The translations under genes were made by a program, and so were the position numbers. A model generated the notes under the pieces. That model was not told where the DNA came from. It saw nothing but the letters and a program-made list of their open reading frames with translations, and made no database searches. This document shows positions 5,842 through 33,541 of a stretch of DNA of 64,000 nucleotides, in pieces. The stretch comes from Chitinophaga vietnamensis (GTDB lineage: Bacteria; Bacteroidota; Bacteroidia; Chitinophagales; Chitinophagaceae). The stretch spans positions 62,001 to 126,000 of the forward strand of contig NZ_CABHMS010000009.1 of NCBI RefSeq assembly GCF_902167635.1, in the 5' to 3' direction. How positions within the stretch are numbered: position 1 is the first letter of the stretch; the number at the start of each line of letters is the position of its first letter.

Positions 5842-7017
5842 CTATTGTCCGTTTACGGACACCGTCCTGAATATTTTCCACAGCTTTATCTTCAATGCCA
5901 GCCAACCGAGGAAAGCGTATACCAGCAACAGGACAGCGAGGTGCTGGATATATGGATAGATGAGTTCCACGGCGCCTTTCTGGATCAGCAATATTTTAAA
6001 CGCCTGTAAGAATGGCGTGAGCGGGATGATGTTGGCGATAAACTGTACGAAGGCCGGCATGGCGCTGAGCGGCCAGGTGAAGCCACTGATGATGAATGCG
6101 GGCGAAGCGATCACCATCAATATCTGTGTGGCTTTCAAGGCATCGGGAATCAGGATGCTCACAAACACGCCCATGAAAGATACCGAGCCAACAAAGAAAG
6201 CGGTGAGCCAGACGAAATGCAGGATGTTCTGCGGCATGGGCACATTGAACAGCATGTGCATCACGTAAAACACGGAAACGATAAGGATAGAGAATGCCCA
6301 GATGGGAATCACTTTGATAAGCATGATAGGAAAGGCCCGGCGGCGCATGCTGCGGTATTCTTCCACAAATGACCCGCGCTGGAACTCTGCCGCAAAGCTT
6401 ACGGCCATGGCCAGCAATATCACCTGTTGTAGTACCACGGCCAGCATGGCGGGCCACATAAAGATGAGATAATTGCTGGTGGTGTTGAACAGCGTAATAT
6501 AGTTGGCTTTAAACGGCTCATACTGTGTAACAGCCCTGGCGGCGGGCATCCCCATCTTTTGCAGGCCCTTGATAGATACGCCGGCAGAGAAAGTGCCAAT
6601 GGTCAATTGTAAGGCTTTGGAGGCGAAGTTGGCGGTGAGCACATTGCCGGTGTTGACATACACATTTACTTCCGGGTATTTCTTTTGCAGGATGCTGGCC
6701 TCAAAACGAGCAGGGATCACTACCGCAGCTGCGGCCTCTTTCCGGATCACTTCATCGTTCACGCTCGATGGCTCCTGCAAGTATTTGAGCACTTTGATGC
6801 TCTTGTTATCTGCCAGCATCTCCACCAGTTGATTGGATAGCGGTGTGTTATCTTTATCGATCACTACAACGGGAATATCTTCTACCTTACCGCTTTTATA
6901 TACAAAGCCCAGCAGCGTGGCATAGAATACCGGCGCCAAAAAAAATACGGTGCGCAATGTAGCATTGCCAACGAACAGTTTGAACTCACGTTTCAACAAT
7001 CGGAAAAATTCTCTCAT
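5842..7017 (-). CDS. ABC-2 type transporter permease (YhhJ/YbhR-like)
   Basis: This 391-residue inner-membrane protein has a first helix at about 20-42, a periplasmic domain to about 175 (IPVVVIDKDNTPLSNQLVEML is typical of this group), then five further helices and a basic C-terminus. ABC-2 permeases of this kind form the channel of exporters that link to an HlyD adaptor and TolC. The gene starts 6 bases after the stop of the HlyD gene, so the two are translated together. The ATP-binding subunit, normally next to it, is missing from the operon. The exported substrate is unknown. Confidence 0.85.
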   Translation of the reverse strand: MREFFRLLKREFKLFVGNATLRTVFFLAPVFYATLLGFVYKSGKVEDIPVVVIDKDNTPLSNQLVEMLADNKSIKVLKYLQEPSSVNDEVIRKEAAAAVVIPARFEASILQKKYPEVNVYVNTGNVLTANFASKALQLTIGTFSAGVSIKGLQKMGMPAARAVTQYEPFKANYITLFNTTSNYLIFMWPAMLAVVLQQVILLAMAVSFAAEFQRGSFVEEYRSMRRRAFPIMLIKVIPIWAFSILIVSVFYVMHMLFNVPMPQNILHFVWLTAFFVGSVSFMGVFVSILIPDALKATQILMVIASPAFIISGFTWPLSAMPAFVQFIANIIPLTPFLQAFKILLIQKGAVELIYPYIQHLAVLLLVYAFLGWLALKIKLWKIFRTVSVNGQ

Positions 7018-7023
7018 GCCTGT

Positions 7024-7980
7024 TTATTTCAAAATAACACTCGCGTTTACCAGTATATCTTTGGTTTTGCTTTTATCTTTGGGTTGCACCTTGATCTCGT
7101 ATACCGCGTCCTGTGGCTGGAAATCAGGGTAGGCCGTGGTGATATCTGCGTAGCGTGTCAGTTGTTTGATGTAGGCGATAGTGCCATCCAGTTCTTCCTT
7201 GTTATAGATCACTTGCAGTTTTACGTCCTGCCCTTTCTGATATTTTGCGATCTTGCTTTCTGGTATGGTAAACCGGAAATAGGTGCTGCCGGGGATATAG
7301 CCGTTGAACAGCGCAAAGCCTGCTGTGGCCAGCTCTCCGGGATTGAGGCTGATGGTTTCTATTTCCATATCGCTGGTGGCGATCACATAACGCTCGGAGT
7401 AGGCCACATTAGCTTCCTGCAAAGCGCCTTTGGCCTGAGATGCTTGTCCTGCAGCCATTTGCACCCTTTCTACGCGGGTGCCTTTTTTCACGTCATCGAG
7501 TTCGGCTACCACCGCATCGTATTGCGCTTTTGCGCCCTGCATTTTGGCATAGATCTCATCGTAAGCCTGCGGCGACATGAGGCTGTCGTTGAACATGTTG
7601 GTGGCGCGGTCAAATGATTTCCTGGCGAAGTCGTATTGTTCTTTCAGGCCTTTGTATTTGGCCTGTAATTGTTTCATCTGGTCGGCGGTGGCGCCGTTGC
7701 GCGCCATCTGTTCCTGTGCCGTGGCGGCATTCACCGCGCCTTGCGCCTGCGCAATTTTCGCCGACACTTCCGGGATGTCCAGCAGGGCCAGCGTATCGCC
7801 TTTTTGTACGGTTTGTCCTTCCGCTACATAAATTTTCAGTATCCTGCCCGTAACTTTTGGTGCAAAGGAGATAACATCCTTTTTTGATTTCCCTTCGAAA
7901 TTATCTGCTCCCCGTTTCTGCGGGCCACAACTTGTTAGCGCCAGTAAACTGATAAAGCATATGCGGGTAATTATTTTCAT
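7024..7980 (-). CDS. HlyD-family periplasmic adaptor lipoprotein
   Basis: This 318-residue protein has a lipoprotein signal (LALTSCGPQ, Cys19). It has the biotinyl-lipoyl half motif VTGRILKIYVAEGQTVQKGDTLALLD, then a long coiled-coil hairpin rich in Ala, Gln and Lys (about 75-185), then the second half motif and a beta-barrel domain. It bridges the inner-membrane permease and the TolC channel in an export complex. It lies between tolC and the permease gene in one operon, which supports the role. The C-terminal residues form the membrane-proximal domain usual for the YbhG/EmrA type. Confidence 0.88.
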   Translation of the reverse strand: MKIITRICFISLLALTSCGPQKRGADNFEGKSKKDVISFAPKVTGRILKIYVAEGQTVQKGDTLALLDIPEVSAKIAQAQGAVNAATAQEQMARNGATADQMKQLQAKYKGLKEQYDFARKSFDRATNMFNDSLMSPQAYDEIYAKMQGAKAQYDAVVAELDDVKKGTRVERVQMAAGQASQAKGALQEANVAYSERYVIATSDMEIETISLNPGELATAGFALFNGYIPGSTYFRFTIPESKIAKYQKGQDVKLQVIYNKEELDGTIAYIKQLTRYADITTAYPDFQPQDAVYEIKVQPKDKSKTKDILVNASVILK

Positions 7981-8006
7981 CTTATAGCGATTAAGTTTAG
8001 CAATGA

Positions 8007-9413
8007 TTAGTACAGTTTGCTCACATCGAGTTCCTGTGTGGAGCGCATCAGTTCAATGGCGGCCCTGCGTTGATTGAAGATGGCATTTTGATAATCCAGT
8101 TCCGCCGCTTCCAGGTCGTTCTCTGCTTCTATCAGCTGTGTAGATTTTGACAGTCCGTACCTGAACTCCTTTTCTGCCGTTACCAATGCATCTCCTGCCA
8201 TCTCCTTCTGTTTTTTCTTCAGCGCAATTTGCGCGTTGGCAATATCATAGTTGGATTGGTTGTTGGCCTGGTTGAGTGTGAGCTTGCGTAATGCATCATA
8301 CTTCTGGTTCTGTAGCAGTTCCTGGTCGATGCGTGCAGTTGCTATCGCGTGCTTGCCTTCTCTGCCATCAAATATCTCCCATTTAAATCCTACGCCGGCG
8401 GTGAGCAGGGGGAAGATATTGAGATTGGTAGGCCGCCAGTCCAGCTTTCGGCCGGGGTAACCGATGGCCGGTATCGGCGGGATAATATTATCAGATGATT
8501 TGATATGCGTGCCATACAGGCCGATGTAATAGGTAGATGCCATCAGCTGTACTTTGGGAATCCACCAGGTTTGTTCCGCCTTGACCTTATAGCTGGATGC
8601 ATTGATGCCGTGGTTCAGTGCACGGATCTCGGCGCGGTCTTCAATTGTTTTTTGCGGCGTGGTGGGCACCACCGGCAGCAGCACCGGATTGATCTGCCGG
8701 AGACGGTCTTTGCTGATGCCCGTCAATACTTCCAGTTGCGTGAGCAGCAATTCCTTTTTGCCTTCATACTCTGCTACTTTGGCGTCCAGCGTGGCTTGCG
8801 CCAGTTCTATTTTTTTATGATCGTATGGTGTGATCAGGCCGTATTGCAGGGCTTTGTCGGCAGTTTTGCGGTTTGCATCGAGCCTTCGTTTGCCTTCATC
8901 CAATACTTTCTTTGATTGATATACCAATGCCAGCTGGTCATAGGCGCGGGAGATCAGGGCCACCACTTCATCGCTGGTTTTCTCGAGCAGCATATTTTCC
9001 GAGAGCTTTTTTTCTGCGAGGGCTTTGCCGAGATATTTCACCTTTCCGCCGGAATATAGCAGCATCCTGGCATCTGCCTTTGCCAGTCCTGAAAATCCGG
9101 ATACGTTGATATTATTATTGTATTTACCTTCCGGAATATTCAGAAAAGGTTGGAGGTTCAGCTCCGGGGAGATCACACGTGCGGTAGCATTGAGATAGCC
9201 GGCCATACCACTTACTTCCAGTGTGGGGAGGTACACATCTTTCAGTTTATGCTGATCGAGGCCAGTGAGCTTGTTTTTGGTAAGTTGCGCCCTGAGGTCT
9301 GCATCCCTTACCATCGCGCTATCCAGCAGCTCCCTGAATCCAGGGGCCGTTTGTGCGTTACCGTAGTGAAAGCATATCAGCGACAGCAGCAGGAATAACA
9401 ACTTACGGTTCAT
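8007..9413 (-). CDS. TolC family outer membrane efflux channel
   Basis: The protein is about 468 residues from the Met at 9413, which gives a normal signal peptide (MNRKLLFLLLSLICFHYGNAQ). An upstream in-frame Met at 9446 would put 11 residues before it, which is less likely. The body shows two long helical repeats with coiled-coil character and short strands, as in OEP/TolC proteins, including ARAYDQLALVYQSKK and the C-terminal EAENDLEAAELDYQNAIFNQRRA. TolC trimers form the outer-membrane exit duct. It is the first gene of the operon tolC-hlyD-permease, with 26 bases to the adaptor gene. Confidence 0.88.
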   Translation of the reverse strand: MNRKLLFLLLSLICFHYGNAQTAPGFRELLDSAMVRDADLRAQLTKNKLTGLDQHKLKDVYLPTLEVSGMAGYLNATARVISPELNLQPFLNIPEGKYNNNINVSGFSGLAKADARMLLYSGGKVKYLGKALAEKKLSENMLLEKTSDEVVALISRAYDQLALVYQSKKVLDEGKRRLDANRKTADKALQYGLITPYDHKKIELAQATLDAKVAEYEGKKELLLTQLEVLTGISKDRLRQINPVLLPVVPTTPQKTIEDRAEIRALNHGINASSYKVKAEQTWWIPKVQLMASTYYIGLYGTHIKSSDNIIPPIPAIGYPGRKLDWRPTNLNIFPLLTAGVGFKWEIFDGREGKHAIATARIDQELLQNQKYDALRKLTLNQANNQSNYDIANAQIALKKKQKEMAGDALVTAEKEFRYGLSKSTQLIEAENDLEAAELDYQNAIFNQRRAAIELMRSTQELDVSKLY

Positions 9414-9525
9414 TGGCGAAATATATTTAAATCCGACACGGTTCATTCTTCAAATTAACAACAAAAAGAACGAATGGTTGATTTCCTGCGTAAAATCGAT
9501 CATTTATATATGAAGGAAAAGCATA

Positions 9526-10167
9526 TTATTCATAAGCTTTCATCTCTTCCAACAACTCCATCGACTTCAACACCGGTGTCCATTCTGTTCCCCTGAAAAT
9601 AAAGCGGAACCATTTTTCCTCCCTGTTCTCATAACGGATATGGATGAACAGCCAGATGGCCAGGGCCGTAAAAGCCAGTGTGATGGCGACTGACAGCGCA
9701 CACCGCATCGGGCTTGACCCATCAAACATGTTGCCGTTCCAGTAAAAGGTGGTCCAGAAAGGCATTTGCAGAAAAAGTATCCGGGTAATCCAGAAAGTGG
9801 AAGACCGTAAGCGGGCCAACTTCTCCTGCGTAGCGAATACGGGTTCGGTGATATCCACCTGCCGGATCAGTATCACCTGGTAGCCGTATATGCCGATCGC
9901 AAGTTTGTTAAACAGGGAAATGATGATCATCGATACCAGGAAGAATGGGCTGGCGGCATGAAACAGGCGGATAACCAAAACGTCCAGGAAGCCCGCCCAC
10001 AACAGGCCTGCTATGATGGCAAATATTTTCAATGGTGTCATGGAACGCAGGAGCGATTGTATTTTCATATGCGTGATATCGGCTGCATTTTTTTTATTGA
10101 GAGAAAGAGATGCATCGAGCCGCTGGCTGTATGATCTCCATAGATCAAGCAATTCTATATCTTCCAT
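9526..10167 (-). CDS. Membrane protein paired with an ECF sigma factor
   Basis: The likely start is the Met at 10167 (MEDIELLDLWRSYSQRLDASL), giving 213 residues; the longer frame from 10239 runs into the sigma-factor gene. A soluble helical N-terminus of about 50 residues precedes four probable transmembrane helices (about 48-65, 72-100, 130-150 and 165-185) and a charged C-terminus. The start lies 4 bases after the stop of the sigma gene. By position it could be the anti-sigma factor, with the N-terminal helices holding the sigma factor. It has no zinc motif. I do not recognise a named family, and the anti-sigma role is inference. Confidence 0.6.
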   Translation of the reverse strand: MEDIELLDLWRSYSQRLDASLSLNKKNAADITHMKIQSLLRSMTPLKIFAIIAGLLWAGFLDVLVIRLFHAASPFFLVSMIIISLFNKLAIGIYGYQVILIRQVDITEPVFATQEKLARLRSSTFWITRILFLQMPFWTTFYWNGNMFDGSSPMRCALSVAITLAFTALAIWLFIHIRYENREEKWFRFIFRGTEWTPVLKSMELLEEMKAYE

Positions 10168-10171
10168 AATA

Positions 10172-10672
10172 CTATTTTTGAAGGGTAGAGAATTTCTGTT
10201 GAAGCAGTTTTTTAATACGGGCAATACGGGTGCTGACATTCGTCACTGAGATACCGGTGATCTCTGCTATTTCCTTTTGACTTTTTTCTTCCAGGTACAG
10301 GAGCAGGAGCGCCTTGTCCAATTCCTTCAGTTCAGTGATAAAACGTTGCAGTAAGCGGAGCTGCTCTGCATTTTCAGGCGGCGCCTCTTTATCAGACAGG
10401 CTCAGGATACCCTCAGATAGCGGGCTGGCGATCTCTTTCCGCCGCCTTTCCTTACGGTAGAAAGAAATAGCAACGTTCAGGGCTATACGATATATCCAGG
10501 TGGAGTACTGATAGGCATCGTTGTAGCTGCTGAACGACCGCCACAACTGTACACTGATTTCCTGAACCAGGTCTTTCCTGTCTTCCGGATCGTGGCAATA
10601 GGCGTTGGCCACCTTGTAGATGATGCCTTTGTGTGCCTGCAGGATGGCCAGGAAATGATCCGTTGCGTTCAT
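10172..10672 (-). CDS. ECF-type RNA polymerase sigma factor
   Basis: This 166-residue protein has sigma region 2 (about 15-80, with the DRKDLVQEISVQLWRSF and STWIYRIALNVAISFYRK blocks) and region 4 (about 110-160, with the helix-turn-helix KSQKEIAEITGISVTNVSTRIARIKK). The length is normal for ECF sigma factors. It would direct RNA polymerase to a small regulon. The gene after it encodes a small membrane protein that may control it. No promoter that it recognises could be picked out. Confidence 0.88.
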   Translation of the reverse strand: MNATDHFLAILQAHKGIIYKVANAYCHDPEDRKDLVQEISVQLWRSFSSYNDAYQYSTWIYRIALNVAISFYRKERRRKEIASPLSEGILSLSDKEAPPENAEQLRLLQRFITELKELDKALLLLYLEEKSQKEIAEITGISVTNVSTRIARIKKLLQQKFSTLQK

Positions 10673-10740
10673 GTTGCGCTTACTGTTTCTTCATTATTCG
10701 CACCACCGCTCAAAAAATCACACAGCAATTTACAAAATGC

Positions 10741-10810
10741 AAAAAAAAATGCCGGCCAAGAAAAGCCGGCTGTGATTAGTAGCTGAATTACCCGGCCGAG
10801 GGAAGGCCGG
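10741..10810 (-). terminator. Tandem terminator hairpins after the LEA-like gene
   Basis: Two GC-rich hairpins lie downstream of the LEA-like lipoprotein gene. One is CCGGCC with GGCCGG (10792-10810). The other is GCCGGC with GCCGGC (10751-10770), followed on the minus strand by a run of nine T. Both are read on the minus strand, the second having the shape of an intrinsic terminator. Confidence 0.7.
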
Positions 10811-10816
10811 TTCCTG

Positions 10817-11281
10817 TTAGAAGGTTATATCCAGGGCATGTTTGCCCTGATAATGAATATTGATCTTTTTTGAAAACCACCCTACCCTGCCCGACATAGT
10901 GCCGGCGAAGGATATCTCCACGGAATCACCGAGGTTGATACCGCTGTTGCCCAGCGCGGCAAAATCAGGTTCCAGCACTACCGGAATGGAAAAGGTGGCA
11001 TGCGCCGGCACGATCATCACCGTATCGATCCTGACATGACCGAGATGGAAGGTATCCAGCTTCATGTCCAGCTCTCCGCCAGTGAAGGTGAAACCATAAT
11101 TGTTAGGATTATAGTAAACCCCTGTTACGCGCAGTGCGGGCTTATTGGGCGTTACGTTAAAAACCTTGACGCTCAGCCTACGGGGCAAGCGGGCCTCCGG
11201 CGTTTTAAAAAAGGAGCATGACGACAGGAACAAAGCAAGCAGCAATAGTCCCCATGCGCTGCGGTGATTAAAGTAGCTCAT
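10817..11281 (-). CDS. LEA14-like lipoprotein
   Basis: With the start at 11281 the protein has 154 residues and a lipoprotein signal (LLALFLSSCSFF). The longer frame from 11341 would put a charged 20-residue extension before the signal and deep inside the upstream gene. The mature part is one beta-sandwich of the LEA type 2 kind: LSVKVFNVTPNKPALRVTGVYYNPNNYGFTF and the later strands are typical. Such proteins are periplasmic or outer-membrane anchored, with no known catalytic role. Its start overlaps the end of the thioredoxin gene by 14 bases, so it is probably translated after it. Confidence 0.7.
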   Translation of the reverse strand: MSYFNHRSAWGLLLLALFLSSCSFFKTPEARLPRRLSVKVFNVTPNKPALRVTGVYYNPNNYGFTFTGGELDMKLDTFHLGHVRIDTVMIVPAHATFSIPVVLEPDFAALGNSGINLGDSVEISFAGTMSGRVGWFSKKINIHYQGKHALDITF

Positions 11282-25942: not shown

Positions 25943-26029
25943 GCCCAGATGGCGAAATTGGTAGACGCACTGTGTTCAGGTCGCAGCGCCTGCAAGGGTG
26001 TGCTGGTTCGAATCCAGTTCTGGGCACCA
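25943..26029 (+). tRNA. tRNA-Leu (anticodon CAG), second copy
   Basis: The acceptor stem is GCCCAGA with TCTGGGC, the anticodon arm CTGTG-TTCAGGT-CGCAG, and the T arm GCTGG-TTCGAAT-CCAGT. All are identical to the copy at 375. The only changes are in the long variable arm: GCCT/GGGT here, GTTC/GGAT there, which keep the pairing. Here a CCA end follows the discriminator base (26027-26029). The AT-rich lasso cluster lies directly downstream. Confidence 0.95.
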
Positions 26030-26066
26030 AAAAGGCTTGTAAGTTAAAACTTGCAAGCCTTTTTCT
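26030..26066 (+). terminator. Terminator after tRNA-Leu; left copy of a flanking repeat
   Basis: The stem GGCTTGTAAGTT with AACTTGCAAGCC is flanked by A and T runs and ends the tRNA transcript. A copy with one difference lies in the same orientation at 33505-33541, on the other side of the lasso cluster. Confidence 0.8.
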
Positions 26067-26143: not shown

Positions 26144-26335
26144 GTGTCTGTCCAAAACGCCTTAAAAATAATACAGCAGTACAGAGAGCAGGAACGCGAA
26201 GATTGTCAGGTCCCTTTAACGCTTGAAGATATCGTTGATATGTCTGTCGAAGAAAATCTCCCTTTTTCTTTAGAAGAACTTAAGAAAGCTTTCCAGATTG
26301 ATTGGGATATGCGTTGGCTTAAGTATTCCTGGTAA
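26144..26335 (+). CDS. Nif11-like small protein
   Basis: This 63-residue protein starts at GTG (an ATG at 26135 is closed by a stop after two codons). The sequence fits the Nif11 pattern: an ALKIIQQYREQ helix, then LTLEDIVDMSVEENLPFSLEELKKAF and the closing DWDMRWLKY. Nif11 domains serve as leader peptides of RiPPs in cyanobacteria and others. Here almost nothing follows the domain, and there is only one Cys (Cys21), so it has no obvious core. It lies 11 bases before the nucleotidyltransferase gene and is convergent to the lasso operon. A small accessory or regulatory role is equally possible. Confidence 0.6.
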   Translation: MSVQNALKIIQQYREQEREDCQVPLTLEDIVDMSVEENLPFSLEELKKAFQIDWDMRWLKYSW

Positions 26336-26346
26336 CACATTTTTGT

Positions 26347-27531
26347 ATGCTGAATATCGAGACATTAAAATGTTCCTATACAAATGAGGAAACATTGCTT
26401 ATCCTGTTGACGCGTTTATACTTCGGAACACAGGATATTGAAGCTGTACATGCTTTCCTGGATAAAGAGGTTATTGACTGGAGTTCCTTTTATAAACTTA
26501 TTCTGCATAATGATATCAGAGGGTTCATTTATGACATTATTACCACATTTCCAGTAGCAATCGATAAACAAATCCATGATACGCTAAAGAAGGACGCCAT
26601 GGCGATCACTTTGGTAGGAGCTTACCAGGCCCGTTTGATAAGTCAATTGAAGATCGCTTTTGAAAAGTCGGGAATAACCGTGATTCCACATAAAGGAAGC
26701 GCACTGGCCGCGCGGTATTACAGAGCTCCCCTGTTAAGAGAAAGCTCGGATATAGATTTTTTAATAAATAAGGATGACCTACCTGAATTAAGAAAGTGCC
26801 TTCATGAAAACGGTTATGAGCAAAGATATTCTATCTCTGCACATCAGATGGGGTTCCTCCTGCGCTTTCACAGAGAGCTCTCTTTTAAAGCTCCCAAAGA
26901 CAGGATGGGCATTACCTGCTCTGTAGAACTGCAATGGAAGCTGCTGGAACGTTACTGGGGGAAATTTTTCGAGTATGATTTTTTTGTTCAGCACCTGCAA
27001 CCCTATATGGCCATGGACGGTACTTCACAGGTGGGCTTGGCTCCTACCTACGATTTTTTATGTGTAGCTTCCAACCACCTGATCAGAGAGCCGCTGTTGA
27101 AATTTAAGTATTTAATTGACTTAGCCTGTATGATTCAAATTTCTTCCAGTGAGTTGGATTGGGAAGAGATAAATTCACGTTTCAAGTTATACAACTATAC
27201 TGCTTTCTTATGGTCCGGCATGAATGCTTTAATTGATATAGTAGGGCTTCAACTCCCTGTACCAGGCCTTCCGCCAGTGGCCTATCATTTATTTACGGCT
27301 ACAGAAATCCAGATTGGCCGCAAAGCATTTTTCAATAAAATCAGGCTGACAAATTTAAAGCGATCATTTCTGGGAAAGATAAAATTCAGCGTGAAAGCCC
27401 GTTTATCTATCCTATTAGTACCTAACGTAAACGATTTGTCCATGACGAATGCGCCTGCATGGACCATCCCACTCATTATTCCCATGAAATCGTTCCGGCT
27501 CCTGTATTCATATATTACCAGGAAACATTAA
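26347..27531 (+). CDS. PF14907-type nucleotidyltransferase family protein
   Basis: This 394-residue cytosolic protein shows the signature of the uncharacterised nucleotidyltransferase family: HKGSALAARYY (about 115-125) followed by RESSDIDFLI, where the D-x-D (135-137) would bind metal and nucleotide. The rest is mostly helical. From known clusters, this family recurs beside lasso-peptide genes and HPr-kinase-like genes, where it may modify the peptide or a phosphate added to it. Its 3' end overlaps the end of the cyclase-like gene on the other strand by 17 bases. Its target is not known. Confidence 0.75.
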   Translation: MLNIETLKCSYTNEETLLILLTRLYFGTQDIEAVHAFLDKEVIDWSSFYKLILHNDIRGFIYDIITTFPVAIDKQIHDTLKKDAMAITLVGAYQARLISQLKIAFEKSGITVIPHKGSALAARYYRAPLLRESSDIDFLINKDDLPELRKCLHENGYEQRYSISAHQMGFLLRFHRELSFKAPKDRMGITCSVELQWKLLERYWGKFFEYDFFVQHLQPYMAMDGTSQVGLAPTYDFLCVASNHLIREPLLKFKYLIDLACMIQISSSELDWEEINSRFKLYNYTAFLWSGMNALIDIVGLQLPVPGLPPVAYHLFTATEIQIGRKAFFNKIRLTNLKRSFLGKIKFSVKARLSILLVPNVNDLSMTNAPAWTIPLIIPMKSFRLLYSYITRKH

Positions 27532-29590
27532 GCCGGGCATACTTATTCAATGCATCCAATATGGTAACAGTAGCGAAGTTCTTTCTTTCGTCTGTTGTCA
27601 CAAATATGTTTTCTCCATTTTCGTGATCGGTGTTGTAAGTCTCGGGAATTCTCAATTCTGCAGAAGGGTTCCAGTATCCTGCGGGCTGTTGAGCATGGAG
27701 GAGATCATTCAGCATTGCTTTTACCAATTCATGGTGCTGTTCACTATCGTATGAACATGATATTATTTTCAATAGAAGTGCTATTTTAAAATCGTTTGGA
27801 ACGGGCTTATCCAGCTCTTTCCGGGCTTTATTGCAAGCCCAGCCTACGGCCATATCAATTTCCTTCTTATACTTGTCTGCATCTTTATTAAACAGGGCTT
27901 CCACGGTAAGTGCGGTGGCATATTCAGGGCCGTTCCACCAGTAGCTGTACCAATATCCTTCGGTATGCTGGTTCGCCAATAAGTAATCAATGGCATCCTG
28001 CTGGCCGGCCAGGGCATATGCGGCAGTAACGCAGTGATGCGGTATTTGCCAACCATTAAAATGTTGCCCATCGGTTTTCATGTTGTATTTTCCAACAGGT
28101 ACATTTGGATCGTACGTGATAACACCGCCGTTTGCAGCAACATATCTGTTCATCATATCAAAACCAGGTTCCGGAAATTCATCAGCGAATGTTGCAGTAT
28201 TTGCAAAAAGCCAGGTCCAGATAGTACTGTCTGCATCTGCTCTGTTCAAAACATTATACCCCCATCCTTCTTGTTCTCTATACCTGGTTTTCAAAATTCG
28301 CCAGGCGCGGTCCAGTGCTTCACTGATTCCAGGGTGCTTCAAACGTGCCAGATGACAGGCTACATAGGCCGTTACCCACTCATCGCTGATGCCGGTCTTT
28401 ACATAAAAATCCTTCCACCATCCTGATTGTTGCTGGTTCGAAAGCAAATGATCAATTCCTTTAGCAATAGCTTGTTGAATAGCAGAAAGGGATACATGTT
28501 CCCGGTGCGCTTTCTTTTCCGTTTTAAGCCCCAGGTTTTTTTTCACCATCCATAAACTTCCATAACCCAGATAAGCCTTTAACGCTATCTCTTTATCAGG
28601 ACAATAAGATAATTTCAAATGAGAGAGCTTTCTCTTTAAAAAAGTGAATTCGTTTTCCGGCTTTCTTAAAGATGCTATCCACAAATGTTCGGGCCAGTCA
28701 TTCGTTTGCCCGGGGAATATCTCTTTATCCCAGTTTAATATGGCTTCTATCTTATCTTTTTTATAATGATGACACGTATTGATCTTCTCTATAAAAAAAC
28801 GCCAGTAAGTATCGATAGGCGGTTGTTTGTCCCAAAAGCATTCAAAGCCAATCTTCGGAAAAACATTTTTTCCAATGTCGATACATAAAGTTACCCGGTC
28901 CGCATAGCTGTGTACGAATGATATCCAACGGTCGAGTGTCGGCCCCGTCCAGGCATAGCCTATTTTTTCCAGGAAGGGGGCTACTGCAGCCATAGGTAAT
29001 TTTTTGATGTTTACCCGCAGCACGTCCACATCTCTGGAAAACATGATCCCCAAATATGCGATATAAGCCGGAGGCGGGCAAGCGTGAAAGATCGTTTCGA
29101 AAAGATCATAAAAGGACCGGTCTTCTCCCAATGTTTCTTTCAAAACAGTAAAACAGACATCCTTCCGGTCGATATCATCTAAACCTGGCTGCAATTCAAA
29201 AAACAATAAAGGAGTTTTTACGCCGGAGGGAAGCACATCTAATTCCAGAAAAACTTCCGTGATATTTTTATGATAAGAAGATAATTGATCCGCCCAGGTT
29301 TTAAAAAAATGGGAGATATGCTCATGCTCCAGATTTCCTGCAAACTTATTTTGCACCCAGTCTGAAAGTGCCGGCAGGTCATCTTCGTCTCTACGTATGC
29401 AGAGTTGCAGGTCTACTTGTTCGTGATGGTCAAGACGGCATTCCAATCCAAAGCGGATGAGTGGAGGAAAAAAATCCGCCGCAGTTTTTAACAAAGGCAG
29501 CTGCGCTGGTGATACCAGTGCCTGTGGAAGCGAATCACAAAAATCCCCTGTCGCTTTTAAAAGCGAGTATTCATCGAATGCTTGTTTCAT
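27515..29590 (-). CDS. Squalene/terpene-cyclase-like protein of the lasso operon
   Basis: This 691-residue soluble protein has two parts. The first 330 or so residues are mixed alpha/beta and not recognised. Residues about 375-690 show prenyltransferase/squalene-oxidase-type alpha-alpha repeats: HLLSNQQQSGWWKDF, EQEGWGYNV, DYLLANQHTEGYWYSYWW and LHAQQPAGYWNPS. A motif D452-A-D454-S-T-I-W resembles the DxDD acid motif of class II terpene cyclases but has Ser in the fourth place. The gene starts 6 bases after the kinase gene, so it belongs to the lasso operon. A tailoring role, such as acting on an isoprenoid for the peptide, is a guess; the repeats might only bind protein. Confidence 0.65.
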   Translation of the reverse strand: MKQAFDEYSLLKATGDFCDSLPQALVSPAQLPLLKTAADFFPPLIRFGLECRLDHHEQVDLQLCIRRDEDDLPALSDWVQNKFAGNLEHEHISHFFKTWADQLSSYHKNITEVFLELDVLPSGVKTPLLFFELQPGLDDIDRKDVCFTVLKETLGEDRSFYDLFETIFHACPPPAYIAYLGIMFSRDVDVLRVNIKKLPMAAVAPFLEKIGYAWTGPTLDRWISFVHSYADRVTLCIDIGKNVFPKIGFECFWDKQPPIDTYWRFFIEKINTCHHYKKDKIEAILNWDKEIFPGQTNDWPEHLWIASLRKPENEFTFLKRKLSHLKLSYCPDKEIALKAYLGYGSLWMVKKNLGLKTEKKAHREHVSLSAIQQAIAKGIDHLLSNQQQSGWWKDFYVKTGISDEWVTAYVACHLARLKHPGISEALDRAWRILKTRYREQEGWGYNVLNRADADSTIWTWLFANTATFADEFPEPGFDMMNRYVAANGGVITYDPNVPVGKYNMKTDGQHFNGWQIPHHCVTAAYALAGQQDAIDYLLANQHTEGYWYSYWWNGPEYATALTVEALFNKDADKYKKEIDMAVGWACNKARKELDKPVPNDFKIALLLKIISCSYDSEQHHELVKAMLNDLLHAQQPAGYWNPSAELRIPETYNTDHENGENIFVTTDERKNFATVTILDALNKYARLNVSW

Positions 29591-29596
29591 ATCAGG

Positions 29597-30526
29597 CTAT
29601 CTTATCGTTTCAAGTATCGCATCGTACACTTCATGGATACGCATGATATTATCCGGAGCATGTATGCTATAGGATGGTACAATTTCCAGGAAGGTCATTG
29701 CTGATTGGAAGTAAGTCTTCAAGTACTGCTTGGAATTAAGCCCCGGAAGTAATATCTCATCCATCAACACTGAAAGTGCATCTGTTTTTTTTATGGTGGT
29801 GATCAGCCTTTCCGGCTCGGGCGTTCTTGATTTTATAAAGAACACGGCGGCGACTTGTCGTGGAAGAATATCTACGGCAGGTGCTTGTTGATTGAAATAA
29901 TATTTACGGGTGATAATATCCGATGCTGCCGTTTCTTTCCAGTCAGGGGGCAATTCAAAAACCCGCTGAAGGTTGCCGTGTGGAATATCCAGCACAGCTG
30001 CTATGTCTGGATTGATCTTCAATGATGTTTCCCCTTGTGATACAAAAAAAGCTTGCTCTTCCTCGTGCAGCATTGCATAGTCATCGCACCATATTTCATG
30101 TCCTCTGAGGTGAAAATAGGTAGCCAGCGTAGATTTGCCGGCTCCCTTTCTGCCCATAAATAAAATCGCTTTCTCATCAACACGCATGGCGGATGCATGT
30201 AAGCAAAAATAGCCTTGTTCCTGCAGGCAAAACTTGGTAACGTTACCCCGGATCAGCGACTGGACAGATTGTTGTGAAGTGCCGCTTACGACGTGATAGA
30301 AAACGTTTTTACCTGCTGAAAAGATAAGAAAGCTCACTTTTATTGTTTGGTCATCATAATATTCAAAGAGGAAACACTTCTTGTTTTCAGAAGTGTTCCC
30401 TGCATAAATATTCTCACCAAAAGTTGCTGAAGAAGGAGCAATTTTAAACGGATTAAATACGATCGCTTTCTTCAGCCCAACAAAATCTGCATGATTCAGC
30501 TTAGTGAATTGGATAGCAAAATGCAA
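29597..30526 (-). CDS. HPr-kinase-like lasso peptide kinase
   Basis: This 309-residue protein carries the HprK-type nucleotide site. LHASAMRV (about 109-116) precedes the P-loop GRKGAGKST (125-133), then CDDYAML (147-153). It lacks the full N-terminal domain order of genuine HPr kinase and no HPr gene is near. Such kinases in lasso clusters (for example the paeninodin type) phosphorylate the C-terminal Ser of the precursor. The precursor 14 bases upstream does end in Ser, which supports this. It is followed after 6 bases by the cyclase-like gene. Confidence 0.82.
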   Translation of the reverse strand: MHFAIQFTKLNHADFVGLKKAIVFNPFKIAPSSATFGENIYAGNTSENKKCFLFEYYDDQTIKVSFLIFSAGKNVFYHVVSGTSQQSVQSLIRGNVTKFCLQEQGYFCLHASAMRVDEKAILFMGRKGAGKSTLATYFHLRGHEIWCDDYAMLHEEEQAFFVSQGETSLKINPDIAAVLDIPHGNLQRVFELPPDWKETAASDIITRKYYFNQQAPAVDILPRQVAAVFFIKSRTPEPERLITTIKKTDALSVLMDEILLPGLNSKQYLKTYFQSAMTFLEIVPSYSIHAPDNIMRIHEVYDAILETIR

Positions 30527-30540
30527 AATTGTTCAATTAA

Positions 30541-30687
30541 TTATGAGTTATAATTTGGTGTGGTGCCCCCGTCAGTCCCATGTCCGGAAGTAGTAGTGTT
30601 CGTTATCTCGCCAATTTTTCCGAGATCTTTTAATTCAGGGGTTTGATAAACCTTTTTTTCCTCGTGTGCAGTTAATTCTTTTTGCAT
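30541..30687 (-). CDS. Lasso peptide precursor
   Basis: This 48-codon gene was read by hand between the cyclase and the kinase genes. The leader, residues 1-30, contains Y14-x2-P17-x-L19-x3-G23-x5-T29, the exact lasso leader motif bound by the B1 protein, with Thr at position -2. The predicted core is TTTSGHGTDGGTTPNYNS (31-48). Asp at core position 9 would form a 9-membered macrolactam with Thr1. The tail of nine residues ends in Ser, the expected target of the kinase. Thr as the ring amine is uncommon; Gly is most frequent. The start lies 19 bases after the cyclase stop. Confidence 0.88.
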   Translation of the reverse strand: MQKELTAHEEKKVYQTPELKDLGKIGEITNTTTSGHGTDGGTTPNYNS

Positions 30688-30705
30688 GATGTTAATCTTT
30701 TAAGA

Positions 30706-32529
30706 TTAGTGAAATGATTGATGATGGTAATTCTTCCATGACAGAACATGTAAAACAGGTAAAACGTGGTTGTAGTGTAACGATGAATGTCTGGCCCCCC
30801 GCACAGCTTCCAACAGCTGCGGTATGTTTATTTTGCCGGAAAGGAAGTCGCCCGATTCTGATAACCTTTTCTCTACCATGTCTTGTATCTCCTGTATTTT
30901 CAGGTTCTGGGAAAGAGGATTTCCGAAAAGAGACGTTTTAGGCCTTCTTATGATCTCTCCGGGCAGGTAAGGGATCATAGCCATACGTAGCAAAGCCTTT
31001 TGATACAATAGATGTGGGGGGAGCGCTAATATGAAAAGGAATAGTTCCAGTGAAAAAAATGGTTGTCTTATCTTTATTTTATTGCCGGTAAAGCCTGGGT
31101 GGGAGGTTTCAAATAGCCAGGACCAGAAAGCGTTTCCGGACATAGCAAAATTTGACCTTGTGGAAGTGCCGTCTTTATTGGGTTTAAATGGCGTATAATC
31201 TTCCGGAAAGAAAGCGGGATCGTACCATGGCGGCAAAGACATATTTGTGTCGGGCGCTTTCTTCACCCACTTCCTTATTCTTTGCCGGATCGTCCGGAAG
31301 AGATGGCCGAATGTTCTAAAGAAGGCCAGATCATCCAGATAGGGCTGTATCAGGTATCCCTGGGCCGCAAGCCTGCGACGCGAGCGCTGCTCATACTCAA
31401 ACAAGGGATCTCCTCCGAAGCCCGCTAATAATACTCTTGAAAAAGCCGCGGCATCAGCAACCATCCGGGATTCAGCAGTGGCATCCGGTATGGCGGCCGG
31501 CTCTGGAATCCAGAAGCTCATGGGCTGGGCGACATTTTTAATATAATCCTCTGCAATGTATTGTTTGATCGGTATTTTAAGATGGCCGGCTGTGAGCTTC
31601 CCGAAATATCCTTCCATTTCATTTACAAGATGCCGGTAGCTGATATTAAAAGATATCAATGTGTGGTCGTCGCCATAGCTGTCATCAAGCACCTTCTTTG
31701 CCGTTGCCGTTATGGACGAACTATCCATGCCGCCGCTCAATGTGCAGGCAACTTTATTGGTACGGGTACGGTCTTTAATAGATTGTTCAAACAAACGATG
31801 AAAATGACTGACATATTCCTTTGTTGCTTTATAGCGTACAGGTTTGATATCGGAGGGAATTTGCCAATAGCAGCTGATATGAATTTCCCCGTCTTTGTAA
31901 ATCAATTTATGAGCCGGTGGAAGTTTTTTAATCTTTTTATAAATCGTTTGACCGAAGCTTCCGTTTCTACCACTCATCAGGTAGTCGCGCAATACATCGT
32001 CATCCAGTTCAGACTTCAGCTGGGGTATATCTTGAAGGGAACGGTAAAAATTTGTAAAAAGAAGCCGGTTATCATATTGGGCATAATAAAACGGGATCAG
32101 GCCGAAATGATCGCGGGCGCAAAAAAGGTGGTTCGTTTGTTCGTTCCAGATGGCAAAAGCAAAATCTCCGGCAATGTGTTGCAGGCAGTCTTCTCCCCAG
32201 TGTTTATAGGCGTAGAGGACCAGGTAGGAATCAGGGGTGCTATTACTGATGGCGCTGAAGTATGCGCCAAGTTCCCTCACCAGTTCCTCCCGTTTATCCA
32301 GCCGTACGTCTCCCACGATCCGGAGATTTTCATCCACGGTGAAGGGTAGCCGCTCTGTTACAGTATCTTCACAGGTTCTAAGCCAGCCAAACCGCAAATC
32401 GGCCCTGGCGCTGCTCCATGCGCCCTGGTAGTCATCACAGCAAGCGGCAATGACTGCCGTTGAAACGTCCAGCAATACAGTATCGGCTTTCTGAAGCTGA
32501 GAAGATACTATGCCAATGAATCCGCTCAT
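30706..32529 (-). CDS. Lasso peptide cyclase (asparagine-synthetase-like, C protein)
   Basis: This 607-residue protein has the two-domain layout of asparagine synthetase B. The N-terminal glutaminase-like domain starts MSGFIG, so the catalytic Cys2 is missing and no glutamine would be used. GDFAFAIWNEQTNHLF (121-136) is typical of the fold. The ATP site is SGGMDSSS (265-272). Lasso cyclases adenylate the side chain of Asp or Glu in the core and join it to the core N-terminus. It overlaps the B2 gene by 4 bases upstream and the precursor gene follows by 18 bases. Confidence 0.9.
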   Translation of the reverse strand: MSGFIGIVSSQLQKADTVLLDVSTAVIAACCDDYQGAWSSARADLRFGWLRTCEDTVTERLPFTVDENLRIVGDVRLDKREELVRELGAYFSAISNSTPDSYLVLYAYKHWGEDCLQHIAGDFAFAIWNEQTNHLFCARDHFGLIPFYYAQYDNRLLFTNFYRSLQDIPQLKSELDDDVLRDYLMSGRNGSFGQTIYKKIKKLPPAHKLIYKDGEIHISCYWQIPSDIKPVRYKATKEYVSHFHRLFEQSIKDRTRTNKVACTLSGGMDSSSITATAKKVLDDSYGDDHTLISFNISYRHLVNEMEGYFGKLTAGHLKIPIKQYIAEDYIKNVAQPMSFWIPEPAAIPDATAESRMVADAAAFSRVLLAGFGGDPLFEYEQRSRRRLAAQGYLIQPYLDDLAFFRTFGHLFRTIRQRIRKWVKKAPDTNMSLPPWYDPAFFPEDYTPFKPNKDGTSTRSNFAMSGNAFWSWLFETSHPGFTGNKIKIRQPFFSLELFLFILALPPHLLYQKALLRMAMIPYLPGEIIRRPKTSLFGNPLSQNLKIQEIQDMVEKRLSESGDFLSGKINIPQLLEAVRGARHSSLHYNHVLPVLHVLSWKNYHHQSFH

Positions 32530-32993
32530 TTAAATCTGAGAATAACGTTTAGTTTATCTGCTGGTAAAACGAAATAATTAGCAATTACCGAAGGATGGTC
32601 ATTTAAAAGAACGCCCTCTTTTTCCAACCATGCGTGGGCATCAAACCTGCCCATATGCTGACTCACGCCAATTTTCAGCTCCGCATCAATACCTTTTCTT
32701 CTTAATAGTAAACGCATGACCAGCGATTGAGATAAACACCTTCCTTTCAAAAATGGTAATTGGTTCATTTGATGAAAGAGCGTTGCATATTTGTCGAGCG
32801 TCACAATAGTTTCGTTATGGTCCGGTGGCGGAACATTCTTCGTAAAAAAAGAAAGTAGCTTTTCGGTTGTTTTTAAGCTCGTAAAACGAAGACTTGCTTC
32901 TGTCAGGATGGTAAGAATGCGCGCTCTAACAAACAGCCGATCGTATGCCCTTAAACATCTGTTTAAGGTAATTAAATCGCGATCTGTATACAT
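32526..32993 (-). CDS. Lasso peptide leader peptidase (B2, transglutaminase-like)
   Basis: This 155-residue protein has the lasso B2 layout. The catalytic triad reads Cys86 (FLKGRCLSQSLVMRLLL), His120 (GRFDAHAWLE) and Asp132 (VLLNDHPSV). It cuts off the leader after the residue following Thr-2, together with the B1 protein that holds the leader. Its start overlaps the B1 stop by one base, and its stop overlaps the cyclase start, so the three are translated together. Confidence 0.9.
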   Translation of the reverse strand: MYTDRDLITLNRCLRAYDRLFVRARILTILTEASLRFTSLKTTEKLLSFFTKNVPPPDHNETIVTLDKYATLFHQMNQLPFLKGRCLSQSLVMRLLLRRKGIDAELKIGVSQHMGRFDAHAWLEKEGVLLNDHPSVIANYFVLPADKLNVILRFK

Positions 32994-33268
32994 CAGTCAA
33001 TGACAATTAATTCTGCATTTTTAAGGCTCTCAATTAATCTGGGGATATCCTCTTGAAGTCGTTCTATGCTTACTTCATATTCATCTTGCAGTATATGGAG
33101 CGCAGATGCGTATTCCTGGTCATCAGATAATAATTCCCAAAATCGCTTCCCGACTTCATTGAGTTCATAAAAGCGCTCCGTGTTCAAATTCAGGATGACA
33201 AAGCCTGCACCCATTTCCCGAACAATACTATTTTCCGATATTTTAATTTTTTTTCCTGAGAAGATCAT
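32993..33268 (-). CDS. PqqD-like RiPP recognition element (lasso B1)
   Basis: This 91-residue protein is a PqqD-type RiPP recognition element: ENSIVREMGAGFVILNLNTERFYELNEVGKRFWELL gives the beta-strands and helix that bind the leader (shown here as the block at about 12-47), followed by two helices. It is the first gene of the lasso operon and overlaps B2 by one base. In split-B systems it delivers the leader to the B2 peptidase. Confidence 0.88.
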   Translation of the reverse strand: MIFSGKKIKISENSIVREMGAGFVILNLNTERFYELNEVGKRFWELLSDDQEYASALHILQDEYEVSIERLQEDIPRLIESLKNAELIVID

Positions 33269-33504: not shown

Positions 33505-33541
33505 TAAAAAGGCTTGCAAGTTAAAACTTGCAAGCCTTTTT
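33505..33541 (-). terminator. Hairpin after the PNGase-like gene; right copy of a flanking repeat
   Basis: The stem GGCTTGCAAGTT with AACTTGCAAGCC and flanking A/T runs sits 13 bases after the stop of the lipoprotein gene on the minus strand. It is nearly identical (one base difference over about 36) to the hairpin at 26030-26066, in the same orientation. Confidence 0.78.

Follow-up and report, generated by a model that had tools for sequence, protein, structure and literature searches.

The 64,000-nucleotide stretch of Chitinophaga vietnamensis DNA analyzed here (contig NZ_CABHMS010000009.1, positions 62,001 to 126,000; hereafter the window) carries an eight-gene cassette in which we recognize a full set of lasso peptide genes of the kinase/nucleotidyltransferase kind, as in paeninodin and pseudomycoidin, plus a fusion of a prenyltransferase with a terpene cyclase (PC). 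Its most likely product is a predicted phosphorylated lasso peptide with a cyclized isoprenoid on Tyr16 of the core; to the whole reading, including the proposed pathway, we assign a probability of about one half. The remaining genes encode the precursor (A), a leader-binding protein (B1), a leader peptidase (B2), a lasso cyclase (C), a kinase (K), a nucleotidyltransferase (N) and a 63-residue Nif11-like protein (Table 1).

An initial annotation of the window had proposed a 48-codon lasso precursor gene between the cyclase and kinase genes, and our analysis bears this out. The open reading frame (ORF) begins with ATG, comprises 48 codons and a stop, and is translated as MQKELTAHEEKKVYQTPELKDLGKIGEITN-TTTSGHGTDGGTTPNYNS, where the hyphen marks the predicted boundary between leader and core. 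The leader fits the YxxPxLx3Gx5T pattern exactly, as claimed (Y14, P17, L19, G23 and T29, the last at position -2). The YxxPxL motif is reported to span positions -17 to -12 relative to the core start (PMC10368454), and Tyr at -17 places +1 at T31, which supports the previously suggested 18-residue core, whose single acidic residue is Asp9. A matches no Pfam family, and with the two NCBIfam lasso precursor models that hit it the scores remain under the curated cut-offs (18.1 vs 33 bits and 14.0 vs 19). The earlier remark that the gene is too short for common gene finders is doubtful, as its 147 nt exceed the usual 90-nt minimum of Prodigal. The gene is more than a chance ORF, because homologous precursors occupy the same position in nine cassettes, the window's included, and because in a 19-codon leader block synonymous differences (pS, mean 0.84) exceed nonsynonymous ones (pN, mean 0.10) in 36 of 36 pairs; judged from this comparison, purifying selection on the leader codons is strong. 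Thirteen leader residues are common to all nine precursors (K12, Y14, P17, E18, L19, K20, L22, G23, K24, G26, E27, T29 and N30), while the cores have in common only the last residue, Ser, and a Tyr two places before it.

The nine distinct cassettes come from Chitinophaga and Pedobacter. A search with the lasso cyclase (E <= 1e-60) detected seven clusters in six of 79 genomes of the window's genus, the window included, one genome (G308) containing two. A scan of genome contigs with an alignment of PC yielded six loci, of which four were clusters already known (two in Chitinophaga dinghuensis, one each in C. varians and C. rhizosphaerae) and two were new (Pedobacter cryoconitis and P. arcticus); the same type of scan with the kinase as query revealed no relative. 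The gene order B1-B2-C-A-K-PC, followed by N and the 63-residue protein on the opposite strand, is retained in all nine, with PC always directly downstream of A and K, while the flanking genes vary between copies. Among 294 genomes evenly sampled from the family (six of them from the window's genus), the kinase found matches in eight (E <= 1e-5), namely the window's own at 1.2e-210 and seven others at 2.7e-13 to 2.8e-6; in a class sample, at 1e-30, only the window's own genome of 395 was positive. The nearest kinase and B2 loci of the family sample are lasso-like clusters lacking a PC match (L029-L038), mostly with other leaders, although the leader in L037 is similar. The latter locus (G136, 7405-7979) contains two near-identical 54-residue precursor genes with Val at -2 and, by alignment, the core FNPGVGSDGGIADCSLS. 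In a tree of the joined proteins P. cryoconitis clusters with the window (local support 0.81), apart from P. arcticus, and the nucleotidyltransferase tree shows the same grouping (0.96), but the kinase tree unites both Pedobacter (0.87) and the remaining single-gene trees differ again; transfer of the cassette from one family to another is likely, though not established.

The lasso enzymes carry the motifs expected for class II lasso peptides. C matches lass_lactam_cya at 7.5e-79, yet below its cut-off (266 vs 525 bits); it begins with MSGF, lacks the glutaminase Cys and has the ATP motif SGGMDS, and both MSGF and SGGMDS occur in 9/9 cassettes. In B2 the catalytic Cys (in GRCL) and His (in HAW) are invariant, and the following Asp is present in eight of the nine, being Glu in P. 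arcticus. K displays the motif H-x14-GxxGxGK[ST]-x15-DD in every cassette, with the spacing printed for BsfK (PMC10368454), and N has an invariant D-x-D; both genes are present throughout. The earlier suggestion that the C-terminal Ser fits the adjacent kinase gains support from the conservation of this residue in all nine precursors. The kinase of pseudomycoidin phosphorylates the Ser at the C-terminus, and hexoses on the same residue are ascribed to the nucleotidyltransferase homolog, although another route is not excluded (PMC9266682). By analogy, our best guess is that K and N act as counterparts of these enzymes on the terminal Ser, through phosphorylation followed by possible glycosylation.

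By predicted fold, PC is an ABBA-type prenyltransferase (P domain) fused to a terpene cyclase of the MstE type. The cyclase domain matches the fold of MstE (6sbb) with E 3.6e-58 and has the acid Asp within DADT/DADS; matches to Pec_lyase and to epimerase/GH105 were rejected as other alpha/alpha toroids with scores well below that of MstE. Because the VIA list for the whole PC model covered the cyclase domain only, the P domain was folded and searched separately, and its ABBA fold was assigned from the predicted model. With PC as query, seven of the 294 family genomes gave a match, but in the six besides the window's own it begins only at residue 233, and one of these contains internal stops. 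When the cassette proteins were compared with loci L040-L045, nothing matched but the PC-like gene, and a Pfam scan of eight proteins from L042 and L044 revealed no lasso genes. One of these loci (L042 in G114, 6839-8779) encodes a 646-residue protein with a weak N-terminal polyprenyl-synthetase match (0.0039, below cut-off) and a C-terminal squalene-hopene cyclase part, with genes for an ABC transporter and a TonB-dependent receptor nearby; it may be a fusion of the ChrPC type.

As the acceptor of prenylation and cyclization we propose the invariant Tyr46 (core Tyr16), which the comparison of the cores marks as the likely site. All nine cores end in Tyr-x-Ser, and the Tyr is the sole aromatic residue besides His in six of them, two others having a second Tyr and one a Phe. 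None of the cores contains Trp, so that the Trp acceptor of NctPC-type fusions is missing from the lasso precursor. Seven candidate precursors from the loci without PC all end in Ser, but they were picked by eye, which may favor Ser ends; one of them (L029) has Tyr third from the end, while L031, L033 and L036 yielded no candidate. A kinase match is present at six of the seven loci that gave candidates, and a nucleotidyltransferase match at eight of the ten loci L029-L038.

In an even sample of the phylum, matches to the P domain were found in 4 of 395 genomes (E <= 1e-5), namely the window's own, G394, G666 and G427. In a plasmid collection five records matched PC. The match covers the P part in four of these (Nostoc, Acaryochloris, Pseudanabaena and Azospirillum) but the cyclase half alone in the fifth, from Deinococcus, which was not counted as a relative of the P domain. 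Four of the seven distant loci examined show a setting typical of ribosomally synthesized and post-translationally modified peptides (RiPPs), and some of these settings, with RiPP precursors next to the P relative, are cyanobacterial. The one in G394 (L108, 8270-11324) combines B1, a lasso-like precursor, a kinase, a stand-alone P domain and a convergent Nif11 gene, with no match to the cyclase, peptidase or nucleotidyltransferase within 20 kb. On the Nostoc sp. UHCC 0926 plasmid (L111, 4544-9053) the relative lies downstream of three ORFs, the third of them short, that each have a Gly-Gly site and a short core in which there is one Tyr but no Trp; their leaders we take to be nitrile-hydratase-like. 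The database record annotates no genes in this region. In the Acaryochloris plasmid (L112) and in Pseudanabaena (L113) the relatives are located beside annotated Nif11 precursors. In L112 (7826-8693) the prenyltransferase-like gene is split in two ORFs and adjoins, besides the Nif11 precursor, a RiPP radical S-adenosylmethionine methyltransferase. The genes inspected in L109, L110 and L114 offered no clear RiPP context. L110 (G427, 9137-11232) has two adjacent, diverged prenyltransferase-domain genes in tandem.

From the genes, their conservation, their catalytic motifs and the predicted folds we infer the following pathway, including the order of its steps. B1 would bind the YxxPxL leader, and K would phosphorylate Ser48 at the C-terminus, to whose phosphate N may attach a sugar or a nucleotide. 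The P domain of PC, perhaps with the Nif11-like protein as its recognition partner, would prenylate Tyr46 with a long (C15 or C20) chain, and the cyclase domain would protonate this chain through Asp454 and cyclize it. B2 would then cut after Thr29-Asn30, and C would close the ring between the Thr1 amine and Asp9. The core of A consists of small or polar residues except for His6, Pro14 and Tyr16, and because of this a polycyclic isoprenoid on the Tyr could serve as the stopper that keeps the tail threaded. More speculatively, such a stopper could explain a tolerance of larger rings. The mass expected in the initial annotation, that of the core less one water, alone or with 80 Da added for phosphate, is probably incomplete, because the PC fusion, the nucleotidyltransferase, the Nif11-like gene and the flanking repeats went unreported there.

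A number of observations weigh against this pathway. The whole-protein model of PC has a predicted template-modeling score (pTM) of 0.49; the Foldseek alignments of the P domain show a root-mean-square deviation near 8 A at a TM score of about 0.5, and by sequence this domain has neither a Pfam match nor a credible PDB match (the best at 0.15). BsfK phosphorylates residue 3 of its core (Ser3) rather than the C-terminus (PMC10368454), although in the nine precursors core residue 3 is not conserved, whereas the terminal Ser is. The lasso-like precursor of L108, which accompanies a stand-alone P domain, ends in Ser but has a Trp-rich core devoid of Tyr. The cassette contains no exporter gene, and no product of it is known. 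The two remaining difficulties, the position of the ring acid and the candidate Trp substrates, each lead to a different explanation.

A ring between Thr1 and Asp9, as put forward in the initial annotation, remains the simplest reading of the window's precursor by its sequence, but not of the whole family, and is uncertain even here because some relatives, if cut at the same point, place their Asp elsewhere. The Thr-Asn pair lies at a fixed distance from the leader motif in all nine precursors, and the +1 residue is Thr in all but one, which has Ser there. If cleavage follows Thr-Asn throughout, the ring acid is found at position 9 in five precursors (the window, G343, P. cryoconitis, C. varians and G361), at position 10 in three (C. 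rhizosphaerae and the two from C. dinghuensis) and at position 11 in P. arcticus, which has Asp5 too; four of the nine thus lack Asp or Glu at core positions 7-9, where ring acids have been reported (PMC10368454). Either some members form larger rings or their cleavage is shifted. Macrolactams of 9, 10 or 11 residues, tolerated through a large isoprenoid stopper on the Tyr, would accord with the invariant spacing of Thr-Asn and the nearly constant +1 residue, but a change of ring size by one residue is reported to reduce production significantly (PMC13352647), and a cut moved by one or two residues within the Thr/Asn/Ser run would restore a nine-residue ring in all four cases; we regard ring enlargement as rather unlikely. 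The broader notion of a terpenoid lasso family, with a polycyclic isoprenoid on the tail Tyr as rotaxane stopper, rings of up to 10-11 residues and a phosphorylated or glycosylated C-terminus, appears to us unlikely.

Under the explanation prompted by the candidate Trp substrates, the cassette would make an ordinary kinase-type lasso peptide (Thr1-Asp9, with a phosphorylated and perhaps glycosylated Ser), while PC would separately prenylate the Nif11-like protein and cyclize the chain on one of its invariant Trp residues. Trp is the residue modified by the characterized fusions NctPC and ChrPC (PMC13290415), and W54 and W58 are invariant in all nine aligned Nif11-like proteins, which could therefore be substrates of PC themselves. 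The 63-residue protein of the window has no Pfam match; in its family Nif11 (PF07862) is hit by one of nine members (L091) at 0.0036, below the cut-off, but the distant homolog in L108 matches at 3e-9, above it. Weak matches to SAM_DprA, DUF4633, DED and similar domains were set aside as due to chance. The profile of this family matches all nine cassettes and also L108, but not one of the ten PC-less loci L029-L038, on account of which the gene seems to travel with the P domain, and P relatives in L112 and L113 adjoin annotated Nif11 precursors. Yet among L109-L114, all of which have P relatives, the profile matches nothing, including the annotated precursors of L112 and L113. Moreover, conservation is higher in the tail of the protein than in its middle, in contrast to the usual precursor with a variable core, no Gly-Gly site or dedicated protease is visible, PC is located directly downstream of A and K in every cassette, and this reading would not explain why the Tyr in the lasso core is invariant. 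The Nif11-like protein may be a trans-acting guide of the P domain or, as the main rival, its Trp substrate; the separate product as a whole strikes us as quite unlikely. Least probable of all, and in our view very unlikely, is family-wide cleavage one residue later, after Thr-Asn-Thr/Ser, which would give rings of 8, 9 or 10 and bring eight of the nine members, including the window, into the known range, but would put Asn at -2 instead of the usual Thr (PMC10368454) and leave +1 variable (Thr, Ala or Asn).

For the prenylated lasso peptide favored here, each component has a precedent: lasso peptides, their phosphorylation and glycosylation, and isoprenoid tailoring of other RiPPs by PC-type fusions are all known. 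As described, pseudomycoidin (PsmK, PsmN) and paeninodin (PadeK) share with the window an HPr-like kinase and a terminal Ser, and pseudomycoidin also an annotated nucleotidyltransferase (PMC9266682); the window's cassette differs by Thr1, the PC fusion, the Nif11-like gene, the absence of an exporter gene and a family-wide Asp position of 9-11. The bsf cluster of Bradymonas combines B1, B2, C, a kinase with the same motif spacing and a predicted nucleotidyltransferase, but its kinase acts on Ser3, its leader has Ile at -2, it includes an ABC transporter, and the available part of its description mentions no prenyltransferase (PMC10368454). NctPC and ChrPC, compared by description only, belong to RiPP pathways and likewise join a prenyltransferase to a cyclase domain, in NctPC an ABBA-type P domain to an MstE-like one (PMC13290415), as predicted for PC, which instead resides in a lasso cassette whose core has no Trp. 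MstE itself shares the fold and the acid Asp of the cyclase domain, but it is a single-domain protein, solved with prenylated dihydroxybenzoates, while its counterpart in the window is fused to a prenyltransferase-fold domain. A cassette joining all three features, with an invariant Tyr as probable acceptor, was not found in the literature searched, outside which Hubrich 2024, Harris 2024, Zhu 2016 and Zyubko 2019 may mention one. The proposal, if correct, supplies seven genes with which amphiphilic terpenoid lasso peptides can be made, and it allows one to test directly if a large group on the tail loosens the 7-9 limit on ring size.

Table 1. Features of the predicted lasso peptide cassette and its borders, in window coordinates
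Feature	Position	Strand	Remarks
tRNA-Leu(CAG)	25943..26029	+	left edge of the cassette
Left 36-nt direct repeat	26029..26064	+	hairpin beginning at the last base of tRNA-Leu
Eight-gene lasso cassette	26144-33268		B1, B2, C, A, K and PC on -; N and Nif11-like on +
Nif11-like small protein	26144..26335	+	63 aa; GTG start; invariant DW..RW near the end
N, nucleotidyltransferase	26347..27531	+	394 aa; PF14907 4e-34, above cut-off; convergent to the main operon
PC, predicted prenyltransferase-terpene cyclase fusion	27515..29590	-	691 aa; ABBA-fold domain (~1-350), MstE-type class II cyclase domain (~361-688)
K, HPr-kinase-like precursor kinase	29597..30526	-	309 aa; TTG start; PF07475 1.3e-4, below cut-off
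A, lasso precursor	30541..30687	-	48 aa; leader 1-30, predicted core 31-48
C, lasso cyclase, asparagine-synthetase-like	30706..32529	-	607 aa; PF00733 2.9e-25
B2, leader peptidase, transglutaminase-like	32526..32993	-	NF033537, above its cut-off
B1, PqqD-like leader-binding protein	32993..33268	-	PF05402 1.1e-13, above cut-off
Right 36-nt direct repeat	33506..33541	+	97% identical to the left copy

The borders of the window's cassette suggest that it may be mobile. The 36-nt repeat occurs only at its two sites in the whole 6.3-Mb genome (with up to 3 mismatches allowed), at each on both strands as a hairpin. The G+C content drops at the left edge, where values of 0.54-0.58 immediately left of the tRNA give way to 0.38-0.46 over the cassette, but it is a weak sign of foreign origin because the right flank is low as well (0.42-0.49 up to 37 kb). 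No comparable direct repeats surround the eight other cassettes, of which one (G343) also lies beside tRNA-Leu(CAG). Mobility is put no more strongly because no integrase was identified at the window's cassette and no empty site was found: none of six helicase loci from relatives, four of them matched via the tRNA, has the window's right-hand neighbors. Just outside the right repeat, the window encodes a 394-residue protein with a peptide-N-glycosidase F C-terminal domain (PF09113; 33555-34739).
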